Assembly (NCBI GenBank): GCA_025359065.1
Contig: JANYHM010000076.1
Span: 1 to 64,000, forward strand
DNA length: 64,000 nucleotides
Reading direction: 5' to 3'
From: Synechococcales cyanobacterium GL140_1_metabinner_5_sub
Lineage (GTDB): Bacteria > Cyanobacteriota > Cyanobacteriia > Cyanobacteriales > Chamaesiphonaceae
Shown: positions 20,917-36,632 of the stretch, piece after piece
Numbering within the stretch: position 1 is the first letter of the stretch
Layout: each line of letters begins with the position of its first letter
The notes under the pieces: model-generated
What the model saw: only the letters and a program-made list of their open reading frames with translations
What the model was told of the DNA's origin: nothing
Database searches by the model: none
Position numbers and translations under genes: made by a program

Positions 20917-22148
20917 CATCCATACTAAAGAAACGCCAAGCATTCTTTAAAAGCTGTGGCTTGCGTGAAAACCCCTTTCGTACTGTACCTCCGGACGACT
21001 TCACCCAAGTAGCTAAAATCTTTCATGGTCGCCAAGAAATACTAGAAAAAGCCATTCTTAACCTCTACGAAGGCCGCAATATTATGGTTCGCGGTGGCTG
21101 GGGCATCGGTAAAACTGCCCTCATTAAAACTATGCTGGTACAGCTTCAGCAAGAAGTTGCCGAACTACAAGAAGAAATGCTGATTATATACATCGGCGGC
21201 ATTCCAGAAATGACTATTGCCACTTTCTATCGCACCCTGCTGTTAGGCATTACCCAACAACTTGCTGGTAACAGCACAGAAGCTAAAGCGATCGCCGACA
21301 GCTTAGGTGGTAGTAACATACAAGCCAATCGCAACAAACTAGAAGGCGGTGTAAATTTGTTTGTGATGACAGCCAAAGTCTCTCGCGAAGCAAATACTAT
21401 CGATTTGAAAGATAGCGCTGTCTATCAGCAGCTCCTATTCTGGCTCGACCAAGCCACCGAATCATATAGCCGAGTTGTGATTGCGATCGATGATTTAGAT
21501 AAAAGAGACTATCCGATCGTCCAACAAATCCTAGAAAATAGCCTCGATCTCTTTCGTCAAGGCTCCAAAAGAGCCTTCATCATGACCGGTCGTCGCCTCA
21601 CTGATATCCAAGATGCCACCACCCGTTCCCTCGGCATCTTCAGCGAAGACCTGCTGCTAGAACCCATGTCTAATGACGACCTGCGCCAAATTGCCATCAA
21701 CCACCTCAACTCTGCTCGCAACGATCCCAGCCCAGGCTGCCACCCTTTTACTGATGCAGTTCTTGATCGCATTGTGGAATACGCCCAAGGCATCCCCCGC
21801 CAACTCAATATTATCTGCGATAAACTTCTATCTGCCGCCATCCAACAAGAATATTTCACAATCGATGAGCCAGCCCTCCAAGCCCTCTGGCCTAACATCC
21901 AAGAACAAATCGTCCAACAGCTTACCCCCCAACTCCGCCACCTGCTTTACAACATCTACCAACTAGGTGGCATTGACGAAGATCTGTCTAACAACGACCT
22001 CGATCAACTAGGAGCCATAACCTTTAACGAACTTCTCCCTTCCCTCAACGACCTCCAAAGCCTAGACCTCCTCGTCCCAAAGACAAGCAATCAAAAAACA
22101 CGATTACTCCCCTCCAAAATCGTCCCATCACCGCCCCCAGCGCAGTAA
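20913..22148 (+). CDS. P-loop NTPase (AAA/STAND-like) paired with the TPR protein
   Basis: This is a 411-residue soluble ATPase. After an N-terminal FRTVPPDDF segment, the P-loop GGWGIGKTAL lies near residue 65 and Walker B VVIAIDDLDK near residue 192, followed by an arginine-rich sensor region (FIMTGRRLTD). A DnaA/Orc-like lid (HPFTDAVLDRIVEYAQGIPRQLNIICDKLL) and a possible winged helix at the C-terminus follow. The overall plan resembles ExeA/Orc-like or STAND NTPases. The gene overlaps the TPR gene upstream by 4 bases and the convergent desulfurase gene by 21 bases at its 3' end. Its function is unknown; a switch controlled by the TPR partner is plausible. Confidence 0.75.
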   Translation: MTSILKKRQAFFKSCGLRENPFRTVPPDDFTQVAKIFHGRQEILEKAILNLYEGRNIMVRGGWGIGKTALIKTMLVQLQQEVAELQEEMLIIYIGGIPEMTIATFYRTLLLGITQQLAGNSTEAKAIADSLGGSNIQANRNKLEGGVNLFVMTAKVSREANTIDLKDSAVYQQLLFWLDQATESYSRVVIAIDDLDKRDYPIVQQILENSLDLFRQGSKRAFIMTGRRLTDIQDATTRSLGIFSEDLLLEPMSNDDLRQIAINHLNSARNDPSPGCHPFTDAVLDRIVEYAQGIPRQLNIICDKLLSAAIQQEYFTIDEPALQALWPNIQEQIVQQLTPQLRHLLYNIYQLGGIDEDLSNNDLDQLGAITFNELLPSLNDLQSLDLLVPKTSNQKTRLLPSKIVPSPPPAQ

Positions 22149-23264
22149 CCTGACGGCCTTGATTGTTGCCTCCGCCACTTGATCGATCTGTACTTGCGTA
22201 GTTCCCCGTCCCAAACCAAAACGCAAATTAGCCTCAGTTTTACTCCGCCCCAAAGCCGCTAACACATGGGATGGCTGACCACTGGCACAAGCTGAACCAG
22301 AAGACAGCGCCACTAAAGGTTGCAGCGCCAGCAACAAGCCACTGGTCTGCACCCCGGCAAAACTAACATTTAGGTTATGAGGCAACCGCTGCTGCAAATC
22401 ACCATTGAGCTGCACATCGGATAATTCTTGCAGATGCTGCCACAAAGAATTTCGCAAAGTTCTCAATCGCAAAGATTCCTGAACACGCATCGCCATCCCC
22501 AGCTCGATCGCCTCCCCCAAGCCCACAATTAATGGCGTAGCCAAAGTACCCGCTCGCTTTTCTTTTCCGCCCCCAAGCTGCTGAGCAGCCAGAGCCTGCC
22601 CTGATCGCACATACAAAGCCCCAATTCCTTTTGGCCCATAAAGCTTATGAGCCGTCAGCGACAGCAAATCTACCCCACAGTCATCTACATTCATAGGTTC
22701 ATAGCCGATCGCCTGTACCGCATCGGTATGAAAAGGAATGCGATGTTGCCGACAAATTTGCCCAATCTCTGCCAGCGGCTGAATCACCCCAATCTCATTA
22801 TTCGCCGCCATCACCGACACCAAAATCGTATCCGGGCGAATCGCCGCAGCCAAATCTGCGATCATCATCAAACCCCGATCATCCACCGGCAAATAGGTCA
22901 CACTAAAGCCCAGCTTTTCCAAATAACCACAGGGCGCTAATACAGCCGAATGTTCAGTTCTCACAGTGATAATGTGCCGACCTCGCTGTAAGCTAGCTTC
23001 AGCGACTCCCTTGATCGCCAAATTATTTGATTCAGTCGCACCACTGGTAAAAATTATCTCCTCTGGTCGGGTTCCGATCGCCAATGCAACTTGTGCCCTA
23101 GCTCGATCAATCGCCGCCATTGCCGTCCAACCATAAAAATGATTGCTGGCCGGATTTCCGAAATATTCCGTGAAAAAAGGAACCATGGCTGCTAGCACCC
23201 GCTCATCCACAGGAGTAGTAGCTTGGTGATCTAAATAAATAGGTTTGTGCTTAAATATCTCCAT
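22128..23264 (-). CDS. Cysteine desulfurase (NifS/IscS-like), copy 2
   Basis: This is a 378-residue PLP enzyme from the ATG at 23264; a GTG at 23276 is also possible. It has IYLDHQATTPVD, FTSGATESNNLAIKG, VRTEHSAVL, HTDAVQAIGY, the PLP lysine in LTAHKLYGPKGIGALY and the active-site loop GSACASG. It has the same fold as the gene at 10639-11769 but is clearly diverged from it. Its closer match to the standard IscS/NifS patterns suggests that this copy is the general sulfur donor. No iscU or nifU gene is adjacent. Confidence 0.9.
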   Translation of the reverse strand: MEIFKHKPIYLDHQATTPVDERVLAAMVPFFTEYFGNPASNHFYGWTAMAAIDRARAQVALAIGTRPEEIIFTSGATESNNLAIKGVAEASLQRGRHIITVRTEHSAVLAPCGYLEKLGFSVTYLPVDDRGLMMIADLAAAIRPDTILVSVMAANNEIGVIQPLAEIGQICRQHRIPFHTDAVQAIGYEPMNVDDCGVDLLSLTAHKLYGPKGIGALYVRSGQALAAQQLGGGKEKRAGTLATPLIVGLGEAIELGMAMRVQESLRLRTLRNSLWQHLQELSDVQLNGDLQQRLPHNLNVSFAGVQTSGLLLALQPLVALSSGSACASGQPSHVLAALGRSKTEANLRFGLGRGTTQVQIDQVAEATIKAVRLLRWGR

Positions 23265-23319
23265 AGAGCAAATCACAAATGGTTATGTATAATTTTGCAG
23301 CGCCTCAGGGAATAATCCA

Positions 23320-23910
23320 TTGGTGATATTATCAACAATTTTCCTGCGTCTTGGGTTCGCCGCCACTATATTACCCACTGTGCCCCAAATATTGGTGATT
23401 TGGCTGCTGTTATCGGGGTACTGCTCGATCGCCATTCCTACCAGTCTGCATTGGGGCTTAGCTAGCTTGGAAACCATTCAAGTTTGGTATAATCTGCAAC
23501 TCTACGCCTATGGCTTGAGACTGCGGAACAATCGACGTGCCATTATTTTGATGGTGGGCTTGTTGCTGTGGCTATCGATCGAAGAAATTTTGCTGCGAGT
23601 GGCTGTTATCCCTAGCAGGTGGGAACAGATGCCTACTCGGTATTGGTGGTCAATGGTGCTGTTGAGCTGGCTGCTTGCGATTTTAAAATATCCCTGGATA
23701 TATGGACATCTCAATAGTTTGTTCCGCAAGCCCGGTCTGTGGTTTCTGGGTGCTTTGCTAGAACTATGTTGCACCTTAACTTACCTTTTTACCAACTCTC
23801 TGTGGTTGACCTTGTGGTTCCATTGGACGATCGCGGCTCTGTGGCTATTACCGTTTGGTGGTAAGTATTTGCTATGGTGCCATAAAAAAAATCCCCTCAG
23901 AAAATTTTGA
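23320..23910 (+). CDS. CPBP-type (CAAX protease/bacteriocin-processing) membrane protein
   Basis: This 196-residue membrane protein has about five hydrophobic segments. The family motif is present as IEEILLR near residue 88 (the EExxxR glutamate pair), and WFHWTIAALW near residue 168 supplies the histidine motif. The third metal-binding position is not clear, so a full active site cannot be confirmed. CPBP proteins are intramembrane proteases or scaffolds; the target here is unknown. The gene's 3' end forms the hairpin of the terminator for the opposite gene. Confidence 0.65.
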   Translation: MVILSTIFLRLGFAATILPTVPQILVIWLLLSGYCSIAIPTSLHWGLASLETIQVWYNLQLYAYGLRLRNNRRAIILMVGLLLWLSIEEILLRVAVIPSRWEQMPTRYWWSMVLLSWLLAILKYPWIYGHLNSLFRKPGLWFLGALLELCCTLTYLFTNSLWLTLWFHWTIAALWLLPFGGKYLLWCHKKNPLRKF

Positions 23911-23915
23911 AGGGA
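23884..23915 (-). terminator. Rho-independent terminator of the AAA ATPase gene
   Basis: On the minus strand, CCCTTCA and CTGAGGGG pair around an AT-rich loop and are followed by eight Ts (23891-23884). It lies 15 bases beyond the stop codon of the AAA gene. It overlaps the 3' end of the convergent CPBP gene, so the last codons of that gene double as terminator stem. Confidence 0.75.
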
Positions 23916-23929
23916 ATTAAGCAAAAATA

Positions 23930-25120
23930 TTAAACAAACTTATGTGTGAACTCGCAGGTGTAATCTACCCGGCCTTTCCGTAGCAGCGCTGGATCCATTC
24001 GTTCGGTGGTGTTGCAAGTCATGAGCACCGCCAGTTTTTGCTTCATCTGAATGCCATTTTCATCGATCACGCTCTGATACAGTGTGCCGTCCAACAAACT
24101 GAGGATATGCTCGGTTTTGTTATTGTCTTGCGCTGATTCTAGCGATCGATTTTTGGCCAAATTGTCGGCCTCATTAATGATCAGACAGATTTTTTCTAGA
24201 TAGGTGGGCGGTACAAAGTTTTCTACCGCGTCGTGATCCAGAATAAAAATGGTGTAGCCCAATGGCATCATCACTTCCTTGGCAAAAGCTTGTGCCCAGG
24301 CGGTCTTACCCGTACCGGGTTGACCACTGACCAACACCGCAATTTGATCTTGGTCAAACACGGCTTGCTGCACTTCGTCAGTAAACGCTTTGATCTCGGG
24401 GGTAAAAGAATTCAGCGTATACTGGCTATTTACCTGTCCGACTCGGCTTTTATAACCGCTCAAAATAACCGCCAAGTTATAGGTGGCTTTGCTTACTAAC
24501 GGACTGAGGTCGTTAGCATAGAGGTTATACTCGCGCTTGCCCCGCTCGTAGGTTTGAATTTGCAGCCACACATCTTGCTCTTCCCAGTAAGCCGAGACCT
24601 GACCAAGGACTTCTAATCTTTCCCAGGTGGTAAATCGATCAGGCGGATAAAAGAAGTAGCGATCCCAGTAGTACTGCACAATCAAGCTGGGCTTGCCCAG
24701 AATTTCTAGGCTGCGCATGATTGTGATTTCTTCTAGCCGGTTGAGCACATAGTCGATCGGGATACTGTCACGGCTGACCATTTGCACTACCGGAGTGCTT
24801 ACCGACAGGGTTTCTCTGTGGCGATGGTCTGGAGCAGCGGGTTCTGGGGTAATAAAGTTCCAAAACTCATTAACTTCGTAGTGAATATGGTCAGAGAATA
24901 AATTAAAAAAGTTGGCGATCGGCGAATATTCTCGTCTGCCGGTAGCATCGGCAACATCACTAAGCAAGTCTAGGGTTTTTTTAGCGAGGTTAATTGGGTC
25001 GTTCCAGACCACATTCCACAAAAACCCCAGATCTAAATCCCGCGAAAGTGGTCGCCAGCCAGAAGCAAGCAGTCCTTTGTTTTGGGCACCGTCTTTGCCC
25101 TGCCGATAATTATCTGTCAT
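23930..25120 (-). CDS. AAA-family ATPase
   Basis: This is a 396-residue protein. Residues 1-240 have no recognised domain but include aromatic-rich helical stretches. The AAA module starts near 245, with the P-loop SGQPGTGKT (Lys272), a Walker B-like CLIINEADN (Asn where Asp is usual before the Glu) and a sensor-1 region VLMTCNTTERMD. The arginine finger segment LLRKGRVD is followed by a short end. The organisation resembles BCS1/FtsH-like AAA proteins, but the N-domain is different and there is no membrane segment or protease domain. The substrate is unknown. Confidence 0.75.
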   Translation of the reverse strand: MTDNYRQGKDGAQNKGLLASGWRPLSRDLDLGFLWNVVWNDPINLAKKTLDLLSDVADATGRREYSPIANFFNLFSDHIHYEVNEFWNFITPEPAAPDHRHRETLSVSTPVVQMVSRDSIPIDYVLNRLEEITIMRSLEILGKPSLIVQYYWDRYFFYPPDRFTTWERLEVLGQVSAYWEEQDVWLQIQTYERGKREYNLYANDLSPLVSKATYNLAVILSGYKSRVGQVNSQYTLNSFTPEIKAFTDEVQQAVFDQDQIAVLVSGQPGTGKTAWAQAFAKEVMMPLGYTIFILDHDAVENFVPPTYLEKICLIINEADNLAKNRSLESAQDNNKTEHILSLLDGTLYQSVIDENGIQMKQKLAVLMTCNTTERMDPALLRKGRVDYTCEFTHKFV

Positions 25121-25163
25121 GAGATATGGGGTTGGGTTTTGGTGATTGCTGTCTCTTGAATAT

Positions 25164-25416
25164 TTAGACTGATGTATCGCCAGCCAAGATCCGCCTCCCA
25201 GCTACAGTTATCCGTCCCTCAGACAGGGGTTTACCGTAAAGAAGGTGCACGTCTATGCTAAACGATCCCTACGAGGGTTGTAGGGTGATCAAAAAGGGGC
25301 AATTGGAAGAAAGTCTGTATTTTTAGCCAGATGTTTGGCTCGATCGCGCATCATGTAGGCAGTATGCTTCTACCCAAATCTAAAGAATCGAGTAAAGATT
25401 ATGAACTTACCAGACC
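25164..25416. repeat. Segmental duplication, copy A
   Basis: This 253-bp block matches 28637-28887 (copy B) with about a dozen substitutions and one 2-bp indel. It starts at TTAGACTGATGTATC in both copies and ends after CCAGACC. It spans a small soluble ORF (frameshifted here) and the beginning of a single-pass membrane peptide gene (intact here). Confidence 0.9.
25172..25326 (+). pseudogene. Frameshifted copy of the 50-residue small ORF
   Basis: The ORF starts MYRQPRSASQLQLSV like the intact copy at 28645-28797. Two extra bases (TA inside CTATGCTAAACG) shift the frame and produce a stop after residue 29. The remaining codons (DPYEGCRVIKKGQLEESLYF) are still preserved out of frame, so the damage is recent. 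Restart from an internal ATG (25255) could give a 23-residue peptide. Confidence 0.6.
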
Positions 25417-25496
25417 TGATGACCCTCGGACTTTTGTTACTTCCAGGGCTGCTACTATCGGTAATTGTGATGGTGACTTTTGCTGCCGGTGGTTAA
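25401..25496 (+). CDS. 31-residue single-pass membrane peptide
   Basis: The frame MNLPDLMTLGLLLLPG, followed by LLLSVIVMVTFAAGG, is one hydrophobic helix with a short polar start, the size and style of small photosystem, cytochrome b6f or NDH-1 subunits. I cannot match it to a named subunit. It follows the frameshifted small ORF of copy A. The duplicated copy at 28872 keeps only the first few codons. Confidence 0.5.
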   Translation: MNLPDLMTLGLLLLPGLLLSVIVMVTFAAGG

Positions 25497-25526
25497 ACGA
25501 CTTGTTGCCCAATCCGCCTGTAACAG

Positions 25527-25856
25527 TCAGTCGCCCCAAAAGCTTTCTGTTAAGGTTTCTTCTAGCTCCATCCGCTGTTCCATTTGGCGCAGAAAGTAGC
25601 CAGTCATCATTGCCGAACCCAATAAATGTGCCAAATGCTCCCGATCAGTGGTGATTTGCACGTTGAATCGATCGGCTGGCAACATACCCAGCAGCCCCTG
25701 AACGTTGTGGGAGATCACATCTTTTACTTGGGGACTAGCTGTTTTGGCCACATGGGACAATACGTCTGGGGATTGGGTTTGAAGATACTTGAGTAATTGG
25801 TTGCTTTGCACTTCATCCGAGGTCTTCGGTTCGAGGAAATCTGAGTTAGATGTCAT
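25527..25856 (-). CDS. DUF760 family protein
   Basis: This 109-residue soluble protein fits the DUF760 family common to cyanobacteria and plastids. It has an N-terminal helix LLKYLQTQSPDVLSHVA, then SPQVKDVISHNVQGLLGMLP, FNVQITTDREHLAHLL and a GYFLRQMEQRMELE helix. No catalytic residues are evident, and the function of the family is not established. It is convergent with the small membrane peptide gene. Confidence 0.8.
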   Translation of the reverse strand: MTSNSDFLEPKTSDEVQSNQLLKYLQTQSPDVLSHVAKTASPQVKDVISHNVQGLLGMLPADRFNVQITTDREHLAHLLGSAMMTGYFLRQMEQRMELEETLTESFWGD

Positions 25857-25957
25857 CGTTCACTCCACACTGTGGTTTAATTCTTTGCGATTATTTTTTT
25901 AATGCTTTCACCACTGTAGTCGATTTCAGTGGATATTAACAAAACTTTTCTTGGCGA

Positions 25958-26506
25958 TCAACTTTCGACTAATTCTGCATCCGCTTCTGACGGCAGCTCT
26001 GGCCCTAAAAATTCAGCTTTGGCGTTGCCCATGTAAGGCTGAAGCTCTTCGCTTAATTCATAGGTTTGGCGAAATTTATCAGTCACTTGTACTAAAGACG
26101 ATCGATTACCCACCTGACGCTTTTTGCGAACTAATCCCAGATCAACCAATTCTTGAATGTGCTGATAGGCGCTGCCACCACGCATTTCTACTAGTTCGGA
26201 CTGGACGATCGGGCCTTTGAGGGCGATCGCTGCCAAAGTGCGTAAGGCACCGGTGCCGATTTCGGAGGGAATTATTTTGTCGCGGAGGCTTTTAAAAGAT
26301 TCTTTTAGCTGGAGAGCATAATGACCACCGCTAGATTCTACAACTTCTAGGGCGCTGTCACGGTGAGCATAATCACCCATTAATTCAATAATGCCATCGG
26401 CAACGGTATCGGTGTTGCAGCCCAAAAATTCGGCAAGGTTTTCCAGGCTGAGGGCTTGCCCCTTGAGATATAAGATGGCCTCAATTTCGTTAGCCAGAGT
26501 TTGCAT
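25958..26506 (-). CDS. scpB: Segregation and condensation protein ScpB
   Basis: This 182-residue protein of paired winged-helix domains would work with ScpA and SMC in chromosome condensation. Recognisable features are the N-terminal EIEAILYLKGQALSLENLAEFLG, the domain joint EVVESSGGHYALQL and the second domain LRTLAAIALKGPIVQSELVEMRGGSAYQHIQELVDLGLVRKK. Length is normal. scpA is not in the window. The gene is divergent from the DUF72 gene. Confidence 0.88.
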   Translation of the reverse strand: MQTLANEIEAILYLKGQALSLENLAEFLGCNTDTVADGIIELMGDYAHRDSALEVVESSGGHYALQLKESFKSLRDKIIPSEIGTGALRTLAAIALKGPIVQSELVEMRGGSAYQHIQELVDLGLVRKKRQVGNRSSLVQVTDKFRQTYELSEELQPYMGNAKAEFLGPELPSEADAELVES

Positions 26507-26603
26507 AGCGGCCTGCGGATCAATTTGAGGGCAATTTTACCATCGATCTGAGAAGACTCGTTGCGTTACTGTGGAAGCGAAGAGCTTAGATAGATTGAAC
26601 TAG

Positions 26604-27467
26604 ATGTCGAATTTATATGTGGGTTGTGCGGTATGGTCTTTTCCTGGCTGGCAGGGAGACATTTTTCCGGCAGGTACTCGATCGAAGAAGTATTTGAGTT
26701 TTTACAGTCGCTATTTTCCGGCAGTGGAAGGAAATACTACTTTTTATGCGGTGCCCGAAGAAAAGGTGATCGATCGCTGGATAGCCGAGACTCCTGATGG
26801 TTTTCGGTTTTGCCTAAAGCTGCCCCGCGATTTTACCCACAGCGGTTTGCTATTGCCCCAGTTGTATAAGTCGATCGATTTTCTAGACTTAGTGAGCAAG
26901 CTAGAAGACAAGCTGGCGTTGGTGTTTATCCAGTTGCCACCCAAGTATAATCCCGACTATTGGGATGATTTGGCAGAGTATTTGACTGGGTTGGCCGATA
27001 TTGGGGTGCCCTTGGCGCTGGAAGTGCGCAATCTAGAATGGTTTGAGCGCCAGAATATGGCAGATTTGAATGAGCTGTTGGCGCAGCTTGGCATTGACCT
27101 GGTGATTTTGGATACTCAGCCGATTTATCAGACTCCCTCTGACCCAGATTTTCCGTTTATTTGCAAAAAGCCCAATGTGCCGCTGATTACAGAAATCACT
27201 GGCAACAAGGTGCTAATTCGCTATGTTTCTCATCCTCGATCGGCGATTAATGAACCGTTTATGAGGGCTTGGGCAGAGCGTTTACAGCCGCTGTTGTTGG
27301 CGGGCAAGGAGATTTATTTGTTTGTGCATTGCCCAATGGAAGATCTTTCTCCGACTAATGCTCGTCTTTTTCAGAAGATTTTGCGGGAGCAGCAAATTGA
27401 GGTGCATGATTTGCCTTGGCAGGAGGCTGCACCTGAAGCAGTGAGTCAGTTGGCTTTAGATCTTTAG
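26604..27467 (+). CDS. DUF72 family protein (TIM-barrel-like)
   Basis: This is a 287-residue protein of the widespread DUF72 family. It has the N-terminal VGCAVWSFPGWQGDIFP, FYSRYFPAVEGNTTFYAVP, FCLKLPRDFTHS, LALVFIQLPPKY, LALEVRNLEW and the C-terminal LFVHCPMEDLSPTNARLF segments. The biochemical role of the family is unsettled. It is the last ordinary chromosomal gene before the cassette array. Confidence 0.85.
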   Translation: MSNLYVGCAVWSFPGWQGDIFPAGTRSKKYLSFYSRYFPAVEGNTTFYAVPEEKVIDRWIAETPDGFRFCLKLPRDFTHSGLLLPQLYKSIDFLDLVSKLEDKLALVFIQLPPKYNPDYWDDLAEYLTGLADIGVPLALEVRNLEWFERQNMADLNELLAQLGIDLVILDTQPIYQTPSDPDFPFICKKPNVPLITEITGNKVLIRYVSHPRSAINEPFMRAWAERLQPLLLAGKEIYLFVHCPMEDLSPTNARLFQKILREQQIEVHDLPWQEAAPEAVSQLALDL

Positions 27468-27600
27468 CTTTCTATAACCAGCGCAGCACTTCAGAATACG
27501 GTACGGAACTTTAGTATTTGGGAATCCACTGAATGTTACGAAATATTAGGGAATTATTTCTAGTTTGAGCAAGGACTTTAAAATTGAAAATACTTCAGCC

Positions 27601-27683
27601 TAAACACCCAATTCAGGGTGTTATGTGGATGAATGTCGGGCTAACCCCCCAATTCTCTAGGGTATATGTGGACAAATGTCGGC
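27601..27683. repeat. Two imperfect ~42-bp direct repeats just before the cassette array
   Basis: 27601-27641 and 27642-27683 share TAA-C-CCCAATTC, AGGGT-T-TGTGGA and AATGTCGGC. The first unit contains a perfect AACACCC/GGGTGTT hairpin. They lie about 50 bases before the first cassette junction (27735). The 309 bases 27468-27775 contain no gene other than these repeats and the junction. Confidence 0.6.
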
Positions 27684-27734
27684 ATATGCGCCTGATTTTA
27701 GGGAGTTATACTGAACCCGTCAGTATATCCAATT

Positions 27735-27741
27735 GTTAGGC
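27735..27741 (+). other. Cassette junction, right box GTTAGGC
   Basis: GTTAGGC fits GTTRRRY, with the expected crossover between G and TT. A TATACTGA/TCAGTATA hairpin lies just upstream (about 27707-27727), but no convincing left box pairs with it. It may be a degenerate attC, or an attI-like entry point at the proximal edge of the array. Confidence 0.45.
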
Positions 27742-27775
27742 ATCTAATTTGTAGTCTGAAAAGCCAGGTATTTGA

Positions 27776-28561
27776 ATGATGCGTGTGCTATATCCTGAGC
27801 ATCCACTAAATAAGACACAAGCAGATGAGCCATATCACGAAGAATTTACTGTGGTAAGCAGTTCTGAATATCAATGCTCACTCTTTGATTATGATGCATT
27901 AGCATTCGACGAATTCAAGCCGCATCCTAGAATTCAGTTTGGTGAACGAGTGCTTTATCGTGGCTGGATGCTCAACTCGCCAAGATATGAAACCCTGATT
28001 AATCAGATTGAACGTAAAGGCGGAATACCGATAACTTCTCATAACGACTATCTTCGATGTCATCATTTACCAGGGTGGTATCAGCAGTGCTCAAACTTCA
28101 CAGCAGAAACATATTTTTTTGCGGCTGATGAAGAACTTGAAATAAAATTAGAAGACCTTGGGTGGGAGCGATATTTTGTGAAAGACTTTGTAAAGTCCAA
28201 TACAGCCGAACTAGGTTCGGTCGCAAATTCGCCATCGGAAGTCCGCAATATTATTGAACAAATTGCTACTTATCGAGGTGAAATTGAAGGTGGCATTGCA
28301 ATACGACGTTTTGAAAGCTATCGTTCTAGTACAGAACATCGATACTTTGTAGTAAATGGGATACCCTACTCATCTGACGGAGCAATCCCTAAACTGGTAC
28401 AAGATATAGCTTGCATTATCGATGCACCATTTTACTCTGTCGATGTGGTAGAAAATTTAGCAGGGGAACTGCGGCTTGTTGAGTTGGGAGATGGGCAGGT
28501 GTCAGATAAGAAGAATTGGTCAGTATCAAAAATGGTGGAGGTTGTTACCGCAAATGCCTAA
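27776..28561 (+). CDS. ATP-grasp domain protein (R2K/DUF4343-like), gene cassette
   Basis: This is a 261-residue protein. The ATP-grasp features are RYFVKDFVKSN near residue 140 (nucleotide-binding lysine), GGIAIRRFE and a C-terminal metal-binding segment LRLVELGDGQVSD. The layout resembles R2K-clade ATP-grasp ligases (DUF4343), which are common in mobile gene cassettes and whose substrates are mostly unknown. Its stop codon lies in the left box of the attC-like site at 28556. The start is the first of two adjacent ATGs (27776, 27779), 35 bases after the cassette junction. Confidence 0.7.
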   Translation: MMRVLYPEHPLNKTQADEPYHEEFTVVSSSEYQCSLFDYDALAFDEFKPHPRIQFGERVLYRGWMLNSPRYETLINQIERKGGIPITSHNDYLRCHHLPGWYQQCSNFTAETYFFAADEELEIKLEDLGWERYFVKDFVKSNTAELGSVANSPSEVRNIIEQIATYRGEIEGGIAIRRFESYRSSTEHRYFVVNGIPYSSDGAIPKLVQDIACIIDAPFYSVDVVENLAGELRLVELGDGQVSDKKNWSVSKMVEVVTANA

Positions 28562-28642
28562 CCAGGGTGTGCAGCGGATGGCCTCAACACTCTGGTAATG
28601 ACTCGAAAATACTTGCCACCGCTGACACCCAAGCCGTTAGAC
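28556..28642 (+). other. attC-like recombination site B
   Basis: The left box GCCTAAC (28556-28562) and right box GTTAGAC (28636-28642) flank paired arms. GGGTGT pairs with ACACCC, CAGCGG with CCGCTG and TGGC with GCCA, with single unpaired G28571 and A28578 on the left arm only. One-sided extra-helical bases are the strand-selection feature of integron attC sites. Size is 87 bp. Confidence 0.82.
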
Positions 28643-28887
28643 TGATGTATCACCAGCCAAGATCCGCCTCCCAGCTACAGTTATCCGTCCCTCAGACAGG
28701 GGTTTACCGTAAAGAAGGTCGCATCCTATGCAACGATCCCTACGAGGGTTGTAGGGTAATCAAAGAAGGGCAATTGGAAGAAAGTCTGTATTTTTAGCCA
28801 GATGTTTGGCTCGATCGCGCATCATGTAGGCAGTACGCCTCTACCCAAATCTAAAGAATCGAGTAAAGATTATGAGCTTACCAGACC
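28637..28887. repeat. Segmental duplication, copy B, starting at the cassette crossover point
   Basis: This 251-bp block matches copy A (25164-25416). The match begins with TTAGAC, exactly the bases after the G of the attC right box GTTAGAC, where an integron integrase would cut. Homology ends after CCAGACC. Confidence 0.9.
28645..28797 (+). CDS. Small 50-residue protein in the duplicated block
   Basis: The ORF runs from MYHQPRSASQLQLSV to GQLEESLYF, ends with TAG and contains two cysteines. The matching ORF of copy A is frameshifted, so this is the only intact copy in the window. It is conserved between copies over its full length, with mostly silent or conservative changes, which supports coding. 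I recognise no family, and it has no signal peptide or membrane helix. Confidence 0.5.
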   Translation: MYHQPRSASQLQLSVPQTGVYRKEGRILCNDPYEGCRVIKEGQLEESLYF

Positions 28888-28910
28888 AGTGGTTTAGAGG
28901 GAGTCGGTAA
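28872..28910 (+). pseudogene. Truncated copy of the 31-residue membrane peptide gene
   Basis: The copy starts MSLPD as in copy A (MNLPD), but homology ends after the fifth codon and the frame runs into unrelated residues and a stop. The hydrophobic helix is lost. Confidence 0.6.
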
Positions 28911-28971
28911 AAAGCTCAGAATTAGGGTGTACTATATTTGTTTAAAAGCTGAGTACATTGCAGATAGACCA

Positions 28972-29496
28972 ATGGATGAAGTTGTTATCGTAGAGTACGA
29001 TCCACGCTGGCCAAATATGTTTGAAGAAGAAGAAGCGCGAATTGCCGAGGTTTTGAGTAGAGCTCTGGTCGTTTGCATTGAACATATTGGCAGTACGGCA
29101 GTATCAGGGTTGGCAGCCAAGCCAATCATTGATCTATTGGTGAGCGTTCATTCTCTCGTTGAGGCAAAGCAAGTTGCTGTTTCTCCGTTAAAGGAATTGG
29201 GTTATGCCTATTGGCTTAATAATCCTGATCCCCAGCGAATGTTTTTTGTCAAAGGTTTACCGCCAAACAGTCCGCGCACTCATCACATCCACATCATTGA
29301 ATCAGATAGTATATTGCGGGAACGGCTGTTGTTCCGAGATTACCTCCGAGAACACCCAGATGAAGCCTTTCGCTATGCCCAGTTGAAGCGACATCTTGCT
29401 CAACAGTTTTTAACTGACCGAGAAGCTTATACGAGTGGTAAGACAGAGTATATACAGTCCATTATGCAGAAAGTGCGACAGGAGCCGGCCAGCTAA
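28972..29496 (+). CDS. GrpB family protein, gene cassette
   Basis: This is a 174-residue GrpB/UPF0157-type nucleotidyltransferase-like protein. It has VVIVEYDPRWPNMFEEEEARI, the HIGSTAVSGLAAKPIIDLLVSV motif (the GSTAVPGLxAKPxIDI signature), RMFFVKG and RTHHIHI. The ATG at 28972 is chosen because family proteins start just before this EYDPRW block; 15 further codons are open upstream. The stop codon lies within the left box of the attC-like site at 29491. Activity is not established; some relatives are fused to dephospho-CoA kinase. Confidence 0.85.
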   Translation: MDEVVIVEYDPRWPNMFEEEEARIAEVLSRALVVCIEHIGSTAVSGLAAKPIIDLLVSVHSLVEAKQVAVSPLKELGYAYWLNNPDPQRMFFVKGLPPNSPRTHHIHIIESDSILRERLLFRDYLREHPDEAFRYAQLKRHLAQQFLTDREAYTSGKTEYIQSIMQKVRQEPAS

Positions 29497-29583
29497 CAAG
29501 GGCTTGCGACGGAACGGGGTGTTAAGCTAGGGTTGTGATTCAAAGTGCAAGTTCGTCCGCTGAAGCCCAAAAGAATGTTGTCT
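29491..29583 (+). other. attC-like recombination site C (degenerate right box)
   Basis: The left box AGCTAAC is followed by the arm GGGCTTGCGACGGAAC, which pairs with GTTCGTCCGCTGAAGCCC through blocks GGGCTT/AAGCCC, GCG/CGC and GAAC/GTTC with bulges. The right box would be GTTGTCT (29577), which departs from GTTRRRY, and the spacer is longer than in the other sites. It is probably an old or inactive attC. Confidence 0.6.
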
Positions 29584-29708
29584 ACAGTTTCTTTCTGAAA
29601 GCATATGCTTGATGAACACAATTGTCCCCCAATCCCTCGCTCAATTCATGCGACCAACTCTAGGTGATAAAATTACTTCCATTCGAGACGTAAATAGCTC
29701 TGATACTG

Positions 29709-29960
29709 ATGAATGACTCTGAACTGCAAATCCAAGCTCAAGAGATTTTGGATACTATTGCTTTCATGCCCTTTGAACAATGCCAACCTCTAACCCATGG
29801 ATTTGAAAGTATTCCAGCCCGTCCAGGCATATACGCAATCAGGCATAGAACCAATGAGCTACTTTATATCGGTAAAACCAAAAGTTTACTCAGATATAAT
29901 GTTTACTGCTGCTTAACCGGAACGTTAGGTTGCTCCAATTATCGTTCAAGGCAACTATGA
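29709..29960 (+). pseudogene. Truncated GIY-YIG nuclease-domain gene, cut at a cassette junction
   Basis: The first 65 residues include RPGIYAIRHRTNELLYIGKTKSLL, the start of a GIY-YIG domain with its GIY and YIG strands. The catalytic Arg and Glu regions that should follow are missing. The frame runs into the collapsed recombination site at 29911-29930 and ends by chance at 29960. A deletion at the junction removed the rest of the gene. Confidence 0.7.
29911..29930 (+). other. Collapsed attC-like junction
   Basis: GCTTAAC (left box form) is followed after only six bases (CGGAAC) by GTTAGGT (right box form). The paired arms of a normal site are absent. The CGGAACGTTA word recurs at the end of the truncated glycosyltransferase (31031-31040). 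Confidence 0.55.
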
Positions 29961-29998
29961 AAAATCTAAATCCTGGCAAATTACAATCAAATTTTAAG

Positions 29999-30502
29999 AT
30001 GAAGTACTTACCCTCAATCATTATTGGATTTTCAACTTTGCTGTTAACTCTGCCTGCATATGCTTGCAGTTGTGCTCCAAGTAAAAGCTCATTTGTGCAG
30101 TTGACCCAACGCTCTGAATTAGTCATGAGGGGAAAGGTTGTAGAGTATTACTGGAACAAAGGAGATACTGAACACAAAACAACACCACTTGCCATGATGG
30201 TTGAAGTCAAGGAAGTTTATAAAGGGGCAACAAAACTAAGCAAAATCACTGTGTGGGGAGATAATGGGGCACAGTGCCGACCCTATGTAACCCAGTTTCC
30301 AATTGGAACGGAGTGGGTTTTGGCGCTCTCAAAGGATAATGAGACAAAGGAGGGAGAGTTAGCTATTTCAGTATGTGGGAAGTATTGGTTGCAAGTAAAA
30401 GGTAGCCATGTGGTGGGAAAAATAAGAGATGGAAGTTCCAGCGCAAAACCGGAAGTTATCAGCCTGCCCAATTTCCGTAAGCTGTTGAGAGCCGCAGCCT
30501 AA
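29999..30502 (+). CDS. Secreted Cys-rich (CSCAPS, TIMP/NTR-like) protein, gene cassette
   Basis: This is a 167-residue exported protein: signal peptide MKYLPSIIIGFSTLLLTLP with a probable cut after AYA, giving a mature start CSCAPS. This is the start of bacterial proteins resembling the netrin/TIMP module, here with further cysteines in AQCRPYV and VCGKYW and the conserved VMRGKVVEYYW strand. Function is unknown. The ATG at 29999 is chosen because it gives a proper signal peptide; the frame is open from 29930. The TAA stop lies in the left box of attC D, as expected for a cassette. Confidence 0.75.
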   Translation: MKYLPSIIIGFSTLLLTLPAYACSCAPSKSSFVQLTQRSELVMRGKVVEYYWNKGDTEHKTTPLAMMVEVKEVYKGATKLSKITVWGDNGAQCRPYVTQFPIGTEWVLALSKDNETKEGELAISVCGKYWLQVKGSHVVGKIRDGSSSAKPEVISLPNFRKLLRAAA

Positions 30503-30576
30503 CAAGCGCGATGCACCGGAACTTTAAACGGCTAGTAGCTAAAGTTCTCTGAATCCGGTGATCGCGAACGTTGGGC
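30497..30576 (+). other. attC-like recombination site D (best preserved)
   Basis: The left box GCCTAAC (30497-30503) and right box GTTGGGC (30570-30576) flank arms CGCGATGCACCGGA and TCCGGTGATCGCG, which pair perfectly apart from one extra G on the left arm. A further AACTTT/AAAGTT pairing lies inside. All attC hallmarks are present in 80 bp. Confidence 0.88.
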
Positions 30577-30687
30577 TGCTACGATTATTGGTGAAGACGA
30601 TAGTTCGATTTTGTCAGTGAGGCGATTCAAAATGTTTGAGATAGAGCAGTTCTGTCGATGGAAGTGCGATAACCGAGAGGCAAAATC

Positions 30688-31053
30688 GTGAGTCGAATTG
30701 TTGTCACCACAATTGGAAGCCTGGGCGATCTGCATCCTAAGATTGCGATCGCGCTCGAACTTCGCCAGCGCGGACATTCGGTTATTTTTGCAACTCACAA
30801 AGGATATCAACCTAAAATAGAAGCCTTGGGATTTGAGTTTCATGAAATGCGCCCAGATGGGCCAGCAGATCCTGCGGAACTTGCCCGTATGACCGACTCG
30901 AAAACTGGATCGAAATATGCCCTTTGCAACTGGCTATTACCTAGCTTGCGTGATACCTACACCGACTTGCTGGATACAGCAAAAGATGCAGATTTTATGC
31001 TGGCTGGGGAAATCGTCTATGCCGCTCGATCGGAACGTTATGCTGACTCGTAA
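30688..31053 (+). pseudogene. Truncated MGT-type glycosyltransferase, gene cassette
   Basis: Starting from GTG, the product begins IVVTTIGSLGDLHPKIAIALELRQRGHSV, the N-terminal Rossmann start of UDP-glycosyltransferases of the MGT/GT1 type. GYQPKIEALGFEFHEM follows. Such enzymes have about 400 residues, but here the frame ends after 121, directly after the junction word CGGAACGTTATGC. The C-terminal nucleotide-sugar-binding domain is missing, so the product cannot be an active enzyme. Confidence 0.8.
31031..31043 (+). other. attC right-half remnant, distal end of array
   Basis: CGGAACGTTATGC ends in GTTATGC, a right-box form known from Vibrio-type cassette sites. No paired left arm is present. 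It marks the point where the glycosyltransferase gene was cut. Confidence 0.5.
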
Positions 31054-31195
31054 TGGAGGATCTCCCGAAGTAGATTCAGGAGTAGACTCGCAAAGCATAT
31101 CGGCAATTTAAATTCGACAATGCATGAAAACAATCAGTTATTTCTGACGCTGCGAGGTGTTTGGGAAAGAAACTGATTGGATTATCAGCGGTCTA

Positions 31196-31588
31196 TTAGA
31201 GTTCTGACCATATATTCCGCACCGGATAATTGCTAAATACGGAATCAGCACTCATTAGCACTAAATTCTGGTTAATTGATTGTGAGATAATGAGCCGATC
31301 GAAGGGGTCAGTATGGTGAAAGGGCAGTGTTTGCTGAACGTTGAGATCACCGAACAATATCGGTAGTATTTGAATGTTCAGTCGATCCAAGATTCTTTCT
31401 AATTCATGAAAATCAACGCCCAGATCGAGCTTGCCTTTACCAATTTTGATGGCGATTTCCCGAAGACTGGCAATACTTACAGAGAGAGCATTATCAGTCG
31501 ATTCTAGCAAATTTGTCATCTCTGGTTTCAGGTTAGGATTTCCAGCAATGTACCAAATCAAAATATGAGTATCGATGAGCAGATTCAT
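31196..31588 (-). CDS. PIN-domain toxin (VapC-like)
   Basis: This 130-residue PIN nuclease starts MNLLIDTHILIWYIAG with the first catalytic Asp. VSIASLREIAIKIGKGKL (conserved Glu in SLREI) follows, and HTDPFDRLIISQS carries the later acidic residues. The pattern matches the Sll0205-like PIN subfamily common in cyanobacteria. The start codon lies 3 bases after the antitoxin stop codon, so the pair is a toxin-antitoxin operon. It is oriented opposite to the cassettes and lies outside the array. Confidence 0.85.
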   Translation of the reverse strand: MNLLIDTHILIWYIAGNPNLKPEMTNLLESTDNALSVSIASLREIAIKIGKGKLDLGVDFHELERILDRLNIQILPILFGDLNVQQTLPFHHTDPFDRLIISQSINQNLVLMSADSVFSNYPVRNIWSEL

Positions 31589-31591
31589 AAA

Positions 31592-31831
31592 TTACTGGTA
31601 GTCAGCGAATTCTTCTAAGGGTTCATCAAAGTCATCAGTAATAGTGACCTTGCCTTTGAGAATGCCAAAACCATTGCGTTTTGGACTTGCAGTGTGATTT
31701 CCAATCTGGGCAGCTACGCCAACACGTCGAGAAGCCAGATACTCAACATAATGCAATGCCTCGACTTGAAGCTGCTCGGGAAGCTGCAAGAGGAGTGAAT
31801 TAATACTCGCGACTGCGTTGGTTTGCGACAT
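31592..31831 (-). CDS. Antitoxin of the PIN toxin (DUF2281-like)
   Basis: This is a 79-residue protein with an N-terminal helical segment SLLLQLPEQLQVEALHYVEYLASRR, as in DUF2281-type antitoxins. A disordered tail ends in an acidic segment (DDFDEPLEEFADYQ) suited to bind and block the toxin. It is the first gene of a two-gene operon. Confidence 0.75.
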   Translation of the reverse strand: MSQTNAVASINSLLLQLPEQLQVEALHYVEYLASRRVGVAAQIGNHTASPKRNGFGILKGKVTITDDFDEPLEEFADYQ

Positions 31832-31971
31832 GCTGCCTGCCTTTTCGTCTATGGGTTCCTATTTTAGCCTAGATTTGGGTGGGGTAGCTACTGACAGAAA
31901 CTGTGCTTGGATTGGAGTCCTTGGGCGAAGTAAAAAATGCAGTGAATTTTCTTTGTAGCATTGATATTGTT

Positions 31972-32030
31972 GTGATTTCAGACCACAACATGTTTTATTC
32001 TCAACAAACGTTGTTATTTTAAACTGCCGT
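31972..32030 (-). pseudogene. Start-region remnant of a paralogue of the adjacent protease-like gene
   Basis: The block matches the promoter and first codons of the next gene (about 32605-32661). Both share TTTCAGACCACA-CAT and a diverged upstream part. Reading minus, it gives ATG and the residues LWSEI, then similarity is lost. It is probably what remains of a tandem duplicate. Confidence 0.45.
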
Positions 32031-32625
32031 CGTTTCGACTGCGGAAAATAATTTCCTCATCAGCTTGTTTGAATTCAATATCAAACATGTCAAAAACAGT
32101 TTCCCTACCCAAAAGATTATCTGTGGCTAGATCTGACTGTAACCAAGCTAGCCTGACATTGAAAGTTTGACCTTCGATCGACATCTCTACAGTGCGAATT
32201 AAGTAAGTGACTTCACCTCCAACTCCAGTTGCTAATTCACCCAATTCACCCAATGATTTCGTGAATCCCAAATCCAGCCCTACTTGGTAGTTTATTAAAC
32301 TCATGTCAGCGCCAGAATCTACAACCATTTCTAGTGGCTTTGAGTTGATGAGGACTGGATATTTGGGCATCCATTCATGCTTTTTGAAATGTCTGAATCT
32401 TAGGGCATAAAATTTCAGCTTTTCTGTGAATTCATATTCATGGATACGATCGATTATATATTCAGAGATAGCTGGATCGATTTGAGATTTCATTGCCCAA
32501 TAATCCTGATGATGGGCAATAACTCCATCAGCAGTAAATGCAATCCATTCTCCTCTGTACTGTTTGAGAATATGAGGATTTTCTTTGTGCCACTGATGAA
32601 TTTTTTTGATTTCAGACCACAGCAT
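32014..32625 (-). CDS. Retropepsin-like aspartyl protease domain protein
   Basis: This is a 203-residue soluble protein. The second half has the single-domain aspartyl protease pattern: YPVLINSKPLEMVVDSGADMSLINYQVGLDLGF (catalytic DSGA), a strand-turn segment VGGEVTYLIRTVEMSIEGQTF and a late NLLGRETVFDMFDIEF (the LGR flap end). Such clan AA domains usually act as dimers. The N-terminal 90 residues (MLWSEIKKIHQWHKENP onward) are unrecognised and might sense or bind a partner. A remnant of a second copy precedes it. Confidence 0.75.
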   Translation of the reverse strand: MLWSEIKKIHQWHKENPHILKQYRGEWIAFTADGVIAHHQDYWAMKSQIDPAISEYIIDRIHEYEFTEKLKFYALRFRHFKKHEWMPKYPVLINSKPLEMVVDSGADMSLINYQVGLDLGFTKSLGELGELATGVGGEVTYLIRTVEMSIEGQTFNVRLAWLQSDLATDNLLGRETVFDMFDIEFKQADEEIIFRSRNDGSLK

Positions 32626-32652
32626 ACTTTAGCCTCAATAAATGTCGTTAGT

Positions 32653-34428
32653 TTAAATATCAACACTATTTACCATAGATAATTCTAGAGCTTCTTCATC
32701 TTGAGAATTTCTAAACTGCTGGGCATAGAACCGTGCATAGCGACCATTCATTCTCAACAACTCATCATGAGTCCCAGACTCAATCAGTTGACCTTTTTCC
32801 AGCACCAAAATTCGGTGTGCTCGGCGCACCGTCGCCAAACGGTGGGCAATAATAAACACCGTTCGATCGACCATAATTCTTTCCAGCGCCTCCTGCACTA
32901 AAAACTCCGACTCCGAATCTAGCGCCGAAGTCGCCTCATCTAACACCAAAATGCGCGGATTCAAAAACACCGCGCGGGCGATCGCAATCCGTTGACGCTG
33001 ACCCCCAGAAAAATTCGTGCCTCTCTCACCCACCCAAGTCGAATAACCCTGGCTAAGCTGGGCAATGAACTGGTGAGCATTGGCAATCTTTGCGGCCTCC
33101 TCCACCGCTGCCATATCAAAATCCGTCTGACCAAAAGCAATGTTTTGTGCCACCGTACCCGAAAACAACATAGTTTCTTGAGGCACCGTGCCAATTTGCT
33201 GCCGCAGACTAGCCAATGTCACATCGCGAATATCTATGCCATCGATCGAAATCGCGCCACCCTGCACATCATAAAAACGGCTGAGCAAACTAACTATCGT
33301 ACTTTTTCCTGCCCCAGAAGTACCCACCAAGGCAATCATTTCTCCCGGAGCTACGTTTAGGTCTAAATTGCTCAACACCGGCTGCTCGGGGTTATAACCA
33401 AAAGTCACATCGTGATAATTTACTCGACCAGTGATCAGTGGCAGCACTATTGCATTGGTTTTTTCTTGAATTAGGGGTTGTTCTGCCAAAAGTTCTAGGA
33501 TTCGATCAATCGAAGCCTGACCCTGCTTAAAATCATTGAAGTTGTTGGTAGTGTTATTAATTGGGTCAATCAATAAAGCGATATTGGTCAAATAAGAAAT
33601 AAATTTTGATACAGTCAACTGCCCTAAGCTAATTTGCCAGCTTGCCAGCACAAATACAAATAAAATACTGCTGACCTGCAAAAAACTGACGACTGGATAC
33701 TGAATTGCTCTGGCGCGCTCGGTATTATATCTGGCTCGTCGATTATCTTCTGAGCCCTCTCCAAACTGCTGTATGTTAAATTTTTCTGCGGAAAAAGCTT
33801 GGATCAATTTAATTCCAGTGAAGTTTTCTGTCACCATCGAAGCCAGATCAGCAGCCTTATTTTGACTAGTGCGCGACTCTCTTTGTAATTTTTGCCCGAA
33901 CCAAGTGACCACCCAAGCAATGATTGGTACCAGTAAAAACACGGTAATTGTAAGTTGCCAGCTCAGAAAGATCATGTAGCCTAAAACTACTACTAGCTGC
34001 AAGACTGACGGAATAAACTGCTGGAAAATTTTGAGCGTGATATCGGCCATCCGATCGACATCGCCAGTCAGCCGAAAAGCCAAGTCACCCACTGGTGTTC
34101 TAGAGAAAAAATCATTGCCCAGCTTTAACAAATGAGCATATACCTGGTTCCGAATGTCTGACCCGATCGCAAATGACACCTTAGACATTGAGGTATTTTG
34201 GCCGTAATGAGCAATCCCCTGAAAAACAAAAGCGCCACAGCCCATTAAAGCAACCTGAATCAGCTTGGGCATATCATTGCCAATGTTGGTGCCAATCTGA
34301 CCGGCTAAGTACCCTAAAACTGGCCAAACAGAAGTATAGAGCAGCGTCCAAAACAAACCGAGTAAGAGCGTCGATAAATGAGGACGCAGATATTTAGTGA
34401 GCTGCCAGTAAGAAGATTTTTGCTTCAT
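32653..34428 (-). CDS. ABC exporter, fused membrane and ATPase half-transporter
   Basis: This 591-residue protein has an N-terminal six-helix domain (about 1-315) and a C-terminal ATPase. The ATPase has Walker [10 protein letters not shown], the Q-loop PQETMLFSG, signature [14 protein letters not shown], Walker [13 protein letters not shown] and the switch histidine in IIAHRLATV. It would act as a homodimer, exporting a lipid, peptide or drug; MsbA/BmrA-like multidrug exporters have the same form. The substrate cannot be told. Its stop codon region follows the DUF445 gene with a 4-base overlap at the start, so the two are cotranscribed. Confidence 0.9.
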
Positions 34429-35666
34429 GGATGGGTGTTTTGCCAGTATAAAATGCCAGATTGTAAGAGACCAACTGCAAAGCCCAGCACACCCCCGAGG
34501 GTAACAATGCCCTGTAGCTCCGTTTTGACGATACCCTGAATTGCCCCCTCTAGATCTTCAGGTGAAGTGGCTTTTACCCGATCGATGATCACCTGATCGA
34601 TGCTCAAAATCGGGATGACTTGGGCAACAATCTTTTCTAGATCTTTCTCTAAATAGCGATCAATTACCACTGCCAGCTCACTACCCACTGTAGATAGAGA
34701 CGAAGACACCACTGCCGAACTGCGCAAGCGCCCGATCGCCAAGGTGGCTACTGCATCCCAATCGATCGTATCGGTTAGACCCGTAATGAGGTCAATGCCC
34801 TGGGTTTTGATGTAATCGCGCACGCTGTCGGCGACGGTAGTGCGCAACTGTTTGATGGTGATCATCGGCAGGTTCTGCAAAGAAACGTTTTGAAACCACT
34901 CCTGCAAGATTTTGCGAATTCCTAGGGCTGTGACGAGTTCCACGATAATTTTGTTCGCAGCATCTCGCTCATCTAAACAAAAAGTGCGCAATCGCAGGAG
35001 GGTATTGCGCACCCCAAACAAGTTTGCCACCACCCAATAGGTACCGCTGCTTTTTTCGCGGATGCTGTCGTCAATTACCTGAATATTTCGATCGGTCAAA
35101 AAATCTATTAAGGCTGACCTTAGAACTTCCGGCGGTAACACTCCATCTACTAACCAGTCAGTTAACTGTTTGGATTGGTCACTGCTAAGCTGAAAATCTA
35201 GCAGTACCCGATCGAAGATCCGCTCAATCTGTCCCTGCAAAAACTGGGGTCGCCGACTCCAAATTTTTAACAAGCGCGGCAAAGATTCCCCCGCTAAGTC
35301 GCGCAAAATCTTGGCCAGGACTTTGGCTGTCTTTTGTTCTTTGTCATCTTGGAGTTGGTCTAAGCCCAGTTGCAGCAGCCATTCTACTGCTGCTTGCACC
35401 CGTTCTACTTGTAAAAGTCGCTTAGCCAGCCTTTGCAGCTCGGCGGGGGTGAGCAATGAACCCATGATGGTATCTGAAACTCGCTTGGCCATGCGTTCTT
35501 GATTGCGCGGAATTAGCCCTGGAGTAAAGGGGAGCTGATATTTGCCGACATAGACAGCGCGGTAAGGGCGAAAGAGCATCTGGATCGCTACGTCGTTGGT
35601 GAAGTAACCAATGATGGTGCCGACTACCGGTGGTGCGATGTATAGCCAAAGTTGAAACAGGGTCAC
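34425..35666 (-). CDS. DUF445 family membrane protein
   Basis: This is a 413-residue protein with hydrophobic segments at both ends (about 8-25 and 385-405) and a long helical soluble middle, the plan of DUF445/YheB-type proteins. [22 protein letters not shown] with [20 protein letters not shown] is the family signature. The end [10 protein letters not shown]-like segment [16 protein letters not shown] returns to the membrane. Function is unknown. It overlaps the ABC exporter by 4 bases and is divergent from ureD. Confidence 0.85.
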
Positions 35667-35810
35667 AAAAAGCCACCAGATTATTCTTACGCAAAGCCGA
35701 TGTGAACTGATCGCGGCTTTCTTCCCAAATTATCGCACAGCCGCACAAATTGCCCAATGCCTTAGAGCACGCTAGGATAGCTGGGGTCTCGAAACTAGGT
35801 TGTTACTGCC

Positions 35811-36632
35811 ATGATTCCCCCAGAGCACTGGCAAGGTCACATTGATCTGCTTTTTCAGCTTGAACAAGAAAACACCATTCTCCGGCGGAGCTATGCCCGT
35901 GCGCCGCTGAAGATTCAACGCCCTTTTTATCCAGAACCAAATATTTGTCATACGGTTTTACTGCATAGTGCTGGTGGCATGGTGGGCGGCGATCGACTTT
36001 CCTACCAAATTGATCTGGCTCCTACTAGCCAAGCGCTGATTACCACTGCGGCTGCTGCCAAAATTTATCGCAGCAGTGGCGCTGTTGCTCAACAGCAAAT
36101 TAATATCAACCTTGGTGCTAATGCCTATTTAGAATGGTTGCCTCAAAACACAATTATTTTTAATGAAGCCCAATATCAACAAAATCTACGGGTTAATTTG
36201 GCTGCGGGGGCGATTTTTTGTGCTTGGGATATCGTGCGTTTGGGGCGCAGTGCTCGCCAAGAAAACTTCACCCAGGGCAGTTGGCAAAATGCTCTGGAAG
36301 TTTGGCAAGAAGGTAAGCCCCTGTGGATCGATCGACAGCGCATCACTGGCGATCAGTGGCAGAGCTTACAGGCTAGCGCTGGTCAGCCTTTGCTGGGAGT
36401 TTTGGTCTGGTTAGGTGGTAGAGTAGACGCTAAGGCTGTGGCTCAAGCAAGGCTGCTGGCTCCGGCAGCGCTACGAGACTGGGGTGTGACAGCGGTAGCT
36501 GCTGGCTTGGTTTGTCGTTATCGCGGGAGCGATCGGCAAGCTGTACAAGAATGGTTTATTGCGGTCTGGGATTTGCTGCGTCGGCAATATCGAGATCGAT
36601 CGGCCTGTATCCCTCGGGTCTGGCAGCTTTGA
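35811..36632 (+). CDS. ureD: Urease accessory protein UreD
   Basis: This 273-residue scaffold protein helps load nickel into urease together with UreF and UreG. Family features are LHSAGGMVGGDRLSYQIDL near residue 45, ALITTAAAAKIYRS, YLEWLPQNTIIFNEA and AWDIVRLGR. It is separated from ureABC by two kinase genes and an HD gene, and from ureEFG by 13 kb, so the urease genes are scattered. It starts at an ATG 144 bases from the divergent DUF445 gene. Confidence 0.93.
   Translation: MIPPEHWQGHIDLLFQLEQENTILRRSYARAPLKIQRPFYPEPNICHTVLLHSAGGMVGGDRLSYQIDLAPTSQALITTAAAAKIYRSSGAVAQQQININLGANAYLEWLPQNTIIFNEAQYQQNLRVNLAAGAIFCAWDIVRLGRSARQENFTQGSWQNALEVWQEGKPLWIDRQRITGDQWQSLQASAGQPLLGVLVWLGGRVDAKAVAQARLLAPAALRDWGVTAVAAGLVCRYRGSDRQAVQEWFIAVWDLLRRQYRDRSACIPRVWQL

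Follow-up and report, generated by a model that had tools for sequence, protein, structure and literature searches.

The window analysed here comprises 64,000 nucleotides (positions 1-64,000 of the 110-kb contig C82) from the draft genome of a cyanobacterium of the Chamaesiphonaceae (3.92 Mb, 121 contigs, 99.84% complete). Near its middle lies a run of small co-oriented genes. Read from left to right, it consists of an attI-like site, cassette A, cassette B, a truncated GIY-YIG unit, a cassette for a secreted Cys-rich protein, and a glycosyltransferase fragment. These features, together with a second integron on the same contig, are as follows.

27516..27745, + strand: attI-like site at the head of the array; crossover between G27735 and T27736; 156 bits with attI model R2
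27736..28636, + strand: cassette A, intact; begins TTAGGC; GTTAGGC exactly complements its own left box GCCTAAC
27776..28561, + strand: ATP-grasp (R2K clade family 3) gene, 261 aa; Pfam PF14243, 7.5e-13
28556..28642, + strand: attC site 1, complete (GCCTAAC ... GTTAGAC); motif-arm scan, fold and covariance model
28637..28887, + strand: first part of cassette B, a copy of about 250 bp of the host chromosome (25164-25416); homology
28972..29496, + strand: GrpB-family gene, 174 aa; Pfam PF04229, 1.3e-52
29491..29522, + strand: left half of the GrpB attC (AGCTAAC...), without right half; sequence
29709..29960, + strand: truncated GIY-YIG gene, 83-aa frame; intact homologue in genome G386 is 123 aa
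29908..29930, + strand: attC right half, right box GTTAGGT at 29924-29930, joined to the truncated GIY-YIG gene; sequence and repeat
29957..30502, + strand: secreted Cys-rich protein gene; TIMP-like stretch scoring below the Pfam cut-off
30497..30576, + strand: attC site 2, complete (GCCTAAC ... GTTGGGC); motif-arm scan, fold and covariance model
30688..31053, + strand: glycosyltransferase family 28, N-terminal fragment; Pfam PF03033, 3.5e-10
31031..31043, + strand: degenerate attC right end CGGAACGTTATGC, box at 31037-31043; sequence and repeat; right limit of the array
C82:83662-87704: second integron, beyond the window; truncated intI, attI, four attC sites

An initial annotation, made from the letters alone, had described this run as genes separated by full attC sites. 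Two sites are indeed complete, while the GrpB attC and the ends at 29930 and 31043 are only partial. The TAA stops of the ATP-grasp (28559-28561), GrpB (29494-29496) and secreted-protein (30500-30502) genes fall within the left boxes, as had been stated. These three genes also stand as cargo, whereas the GIY-YIG gene listed with them is truncated and the glycosyltransferase is a fragment, joined to the degenerate right box. Two units combine a gene, an attC site and a complementary start. Cassette A passes the strictest sequence criterion (its TTAGGC plus the preceding G complement its own left box at 7/7 positions), and the secreted-protein cassette at 29925-30570 matches at 6/7. The remaining units are incomplete. 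Attachment sites of this kind recur elsewhere in the genome: attC site 1 is 92.5% identical to the attC of another cassette (C115:9887-9973), and the left half of the GrpB attC resembles that of the site at C82:86346-86437. An Rfam scan of window positions 22000-36000 gave no match at E ≤ 1, and promoter-like sites at the array were no more frequent than expected by chance.

The attC sites were identified by scanning the 110-kb contig for RYYYAAC...GTTRRRY pairs with pairing arms. This returned four sites: one pair in the window array and another near 85 kb. With relaxed settings, two further sites appeared, near 84 kb and near 86 kb. The window sites had arm scores of 26 (28556-28642) and 23 (30497-30576); first-order Markov controls gave about 0.1 matches per contig at arm scores of at least 21. 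Folding the bottom strand of both complete sites produced the attC hairpin with extrahelical bases (z of -2.8 and -5.0). A covariance model (R3) of fifteen attC sites, all from other genomes and none from this one, matched 28556-28642 with 45.9 bits (E = 7e-9) and 30497-30576 with 54.6 bits (E = 5e-11). Across the contig it otherwise matched only the four sites of the second integron. The initial annotation had proposed exactly such a search as its test, to be failed if no attC appeared at these two places; both sites were found. A second model (R1), built from all twenty-one cyanobacterial attC sites, had matches in 29 of 146 cyanobacterial genomes (this one included); the remaining 117 gave no match at E 1e-5, and the model is thus not promiscuous. 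In the alignment of the twenty-one sites, 13 of 18 pairs show compensated changes, though we do not take these counts as proof because the candidates were selected partly by pairing. No terminator-like sites were seen at the attC positions.

Cassette B begins with host sequence. The homology between 28637-28887 and the host DNA starts exactly at TTAGAC, which is the crossover, and the copy carries a deletion at a CCAGACC repeat. In the sister species (G386), the source sequence (25164-25416) is conserved and in its native position. This host-derived start may be a trace left when a cassette formed from host DNA, and so may show one way in which new cassettes arise. The initial annotation had also proposed comparing related strains, where a fixed gene order without cassette gain or loss would speak against it; at the level of the sister species, the left-flank gene (DUF72) is present but the array beside it is missing. 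There the left flank is on C152 and the right flank (an ABC transporter) on C124, which places the array at a synteny break; with the flanks on separate contigs, no clean empty site can be demonstrated. The same genome, of the same genus and the nearest relative among the genomes compared, carries the intact 123-aa GIY-YIG homologue on contig C153 as a cassette bounded by attC sites, in another location and with other neighbours than in the window array. This different place and company fit movement of the cassette between arrays. A further cassette protein in the C153 array, whose attC sites are near-identical, has a TIR effector domain (PADLOC, E = 2.5e-48). In the window, a PIN-domain toxin-like gene and a small upstream partner (31196-31831, minus strand) lie between the array and its right flank, and a 58-bp direct repeat (81%; 31966-32023 and 32600-32657) lies near both ends of an aspartyl-protease-like gene.

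In both congeners, the sequence that separates intI from the first cassette can be aligned with the roughly 200 bases preceding cassette A. Because the attI model R2 contained the window copy among its sequences, we built an independent profile from only the intI-adjacent attI regions of other genera. It matches 27586-27744 (E = 2.5e-16). Elsewhere in this genome it also matches four orphan sites and the one adjacent to intI, and shuffled sequence gave nothing comparable. Among twenty cyanobacterial intI loci, R2 directly adjoins intI in thirteen. Judged by this homology, the left edge of the array is an attI site, not a bare right box. Many copies of the attI-like sequence are present; it has a quasi-palindromic form and can be matched on either strand.

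The search for integron integrases turned up just one in this genome, a stump of 101 N-terminal residues (C82:87399-87704) that covers positions 1-83 of TIGR02249 (E = 2.5e-29). It belongs to the second integron, about 56 kb from the window array, where it faces an attI and oppositely running cassettes whose four attC sites reach down to 83.66 kb. From the translations, the cargo of this integron includes a response-regulator-like protein, a BrnT/BrnA-like pair, and paired 102-aa and aspartyl-protease-like genes that are present twice. Beside the window array, HMM search detected no intI, and base-level comparison showed no intI remnant at the window attI. The claim that no integrase lies nearby therefore holds for the array itself, but the same contig carries a truncated intI with attI and four attC sites at 83.6-87.7 kb; that stump was the single match in the genome-wide search that had been suggested. 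Elsewhere in the group, the intI copy of G386 has an in-frame stop and a frameshift, and another family member (G393) has an intact gene. Across 386 sampled cyanobacterial genomes, twenty-two have an intI above the curated cut-off.

Sites of both kinds are dispersed in this genome: ten contigs carry a total of nineteen attC sites (E 1e-3), and the attI-like sites number about eight. Because several arrays stop at contig ends, and some of these ends share identical 140-bp repeats, the number of separate arrays is uncertain. Thirteen genomes together hold forty-six attI-like sites, twenty-three of them with attC inside 3.5 kb. At twenty of these the attC is downstream on the same strand. At three it was called upstream on the opposite strand; if the strand of the quasi-palindromic site was miscalled in these cases, their geometry is identical. 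There is no discordant case. The other twenty-three copies have no attC inside 3.5 kb, and many of them are weak or at contig ends. The nearly closed genome G388 (three contigs, with a 6.28-Mb chromosome) has twenty-six attC sites, eight attI-like sites and, at E 1e-12, no match to intI; an artefact of assembly therefore does not account for the pattern. In a single-contig cyanobacterial genome (G014), ten attC sites are likewise spread over many separate locations, and intI gives no match at E 1e-40; going by this genome, scattered attC sites without integrase may be common among Cyanobacteria.

Three orphan attI sites of this genome (on C42, C55 and C83) retain remnants of the intI 5' end. 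These are of differing lengths (about 15-30 codons) and were unmatched by any of 500 shuffles; HMM search beside the orphan sites returned known intI copies only. The remnants establish intI loss for these sister copies, and by analogy with them the window array has probably lost its intI as well. The C55 site adjoins a ribosomal-protein gene cluster, and behind the attI is a protein of 1736 aa with a match to the Avs4 anti-phage family (E = 1e-174). Several attI copies start near the same place, and we considered whether the attI unit might be a mobile element with a fixed left end. This idea was dropped because C55 and C83 run on into intI remnants and because a pair of copies in G388 shares 1.4 kb that includes part of a histidine kinase gene.

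Comparison of attI copies in pairs places the end of their similarity at the crossover. In six pairs, similarity holds up to the GTTA at this point and is at background level beyond it. The window array is 82.8% identical to C115 over 203 bp up to the crossover and 79% identical to C164 of G386, and the intI-adjacent attI regions of the two congeners are 82% identical up to the same point. Three further pairs are G386 C146b and C46 (94.3% over 369 bp up to the crossover), G386 C153 and C181 (97.6% over 615 bp plus 87 bp), and G388 C3 and C1a (85.7% over 1396 bp, including the histidine kinase fragment). That all six should end there by chance is, in our judgement, very unlikely. In the last three pairs (two from G386, one from G388) the shared upstream sequence contains no intI, and the cassettes differ from the crossover on; duplication would therefore have followed intI loss, with the change of cassettes later still. 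The simplest reading of these intI-less pairs would be that a site-specific enzyme acted on them from elsewhere.

Taken together, the window array is likely to be a relic headed by attI and without an integrase of its own, one of several in a dispersed, multi-attI system of the Chamaesiphonaceae in which cassettes were presumably exchanged in trans. According to this explanation, it began as an attI followed by captured gene cassettes, and has since lost its own intI, while several attC sites were halved and two genes truncated. Copies of attI would have spread via segmental duplication or rearrangement, losing the adjacent intI, and the cassettes at the orphan sites would have been inserted and excised by an integrase made elsewhere in the cell, its source probably the locus whose intI is now the 101-residue stump. 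Today the array would not be self-mobile, and cassette A (27736-28636) and the cassette at 29925-30570 would keep sites usable by an integrase supplied in trans. Since there is no intact integrase and attC sites are halved and genes truncated, the array is most likely decaying; its remaining genes may still be expressed.

The strongest competitor to exchange in trans is that the orphan arrays are complete integrons that lost intI in place, with no later exchange and with identity breaks that predate the loss. Remnants of different lengths at C42, C55 and C83 do show loss in place, as do the frameshifted or truncated intI genes of the congeners. The intI-less duplicates (G386 C153/C181 and C146b/C46, G388 C3/C1a) speak against it, since they carry different cassettes from the crossover on, and we consider loss in place as the whole story unlikely. 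Quite improbable, in our view, is that cassettes were inserted off target by an integrase elsewhere, at an ordinary attG-like secondary site where no integron platform ever stood. Such insertion is one published route to CALINs (clusters of attC sites without integrase; PMC8618304), IntI1 is known to use attG sites (PMC12901181), and the window array has no adjoining intI remnant. However, an attI of 150-200 bp, homologous to the intI-adjacent attI of other genera, sits exactly at the cassette boundary, and the independent attI profile already largely refutes this route.

Two other possibilities concern the sites themselves. The attI-like sequence could be a dispersed palindromic repeat family that lies beside arrays by chance and is no recombination site; it is quasi-palindromic with matches on both strands, it has many copies, and half of the forty-six lack attC inside 3.5 kb. 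But it adjoins intI in thirteen of twenty loci, keeps a strict orientation to attC, and loses similarity at the G|TTRRRY crossover, which leaves this idea very improbable. Genomes commonly contain hairpins whose short ends are conserved, and the attC-like structures might be terminators or other hairpins in a gene cluster unrelated to integrons. We give this hardly any credence: over 110 kb the out-of-sample model picks out the six expected sites and no others, 117 of 146 cyanobacterial genomes give no match to the attC model at E 1e-5, no terminator-like site was seen at the attC positions, and the boxes are consistent with where the stops and the cassette boundaries lie. Provided that the models are specific, the out-of-sample search and the 146-genome survey have already refuted it.

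The relic, attI-headed reading can be carried further. There is perhaps an even chance that in the Chamaesiphonaceae one integrase served scattered orphan attI docking sites, chromosomal and plasmid, exchanging cassettes among them in trans, with the window array as a satellite. If so, the duplicated intI-less attI pairs that diverge past the crossover are a record of such activity. If orphan attI sites do fill in trans, one integrase can furnish many loci, and the way integron capacity is counted per genome would change.

The initial annotation had linked the array to CALINs, which it described as little studied in cyanobacteria. Integrons and CALINs of this phylum are already published, as is a covariance model of cyanobacterial attC sites (PMC8352920, PMC9668308, PMC8618304), which removes the novelty for the phylum. 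The array does qualify as a CALIN (PMC9024848, PMC8618304): it is small and degraded, has at least two attC sites close together, and has no integrase in the cluster or adjoining it. It differs from known ones in that a recognisable attI, overlooked at first, stands at its head, and in being one of many such arrays in the genome. Neither is it a complete integron, as no intact intI adjoins the attI here and that of the second integron is truncated. Several routes to CALINs have been proposed, loss of intI being one published hypothesis (PMC8618304); among the intI genes catalogued early on, one third were pseudogenes (PMC2426708). In IntegronFinder, detection of attI is limited to class 1 (PMC9024848). 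A cross-family cyanobacterial attI profile makes the origin of CALINs testable: unlike tools based on attC alone, it can tell attI-headed relics apart from off-target insertions. Our literature search, which reached few subscription papers, turned up no description of dispersed attI-headed arrays and nothing on Chamaesiphon integrons. The cyanobacterial integrons used for attC modelling (PMC8352920) come from the same phylum, and their attC sites were modelled by taxon; in the text consulted, attI and the dispersal of arrays are not described. The sedentary chromosomal integrons of Xanthomonas (PMC12444791) share an ancestral platform, repeated inactivation of intI, off-locus CALINs and decaying arrays, but the platform there is at a single locus (ilvD), whereas the present genome has about eight attI-like sites in scattered positions. 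In the Delta-attI gene cassettes of class 1 and 2 integrons (PMC12901181), attI is likewise found away from its intI-adjacent place and is still used by IntI; the partial attI there replaces attC downstream of a gene, whereas here attI lies upstream of whole arrays.
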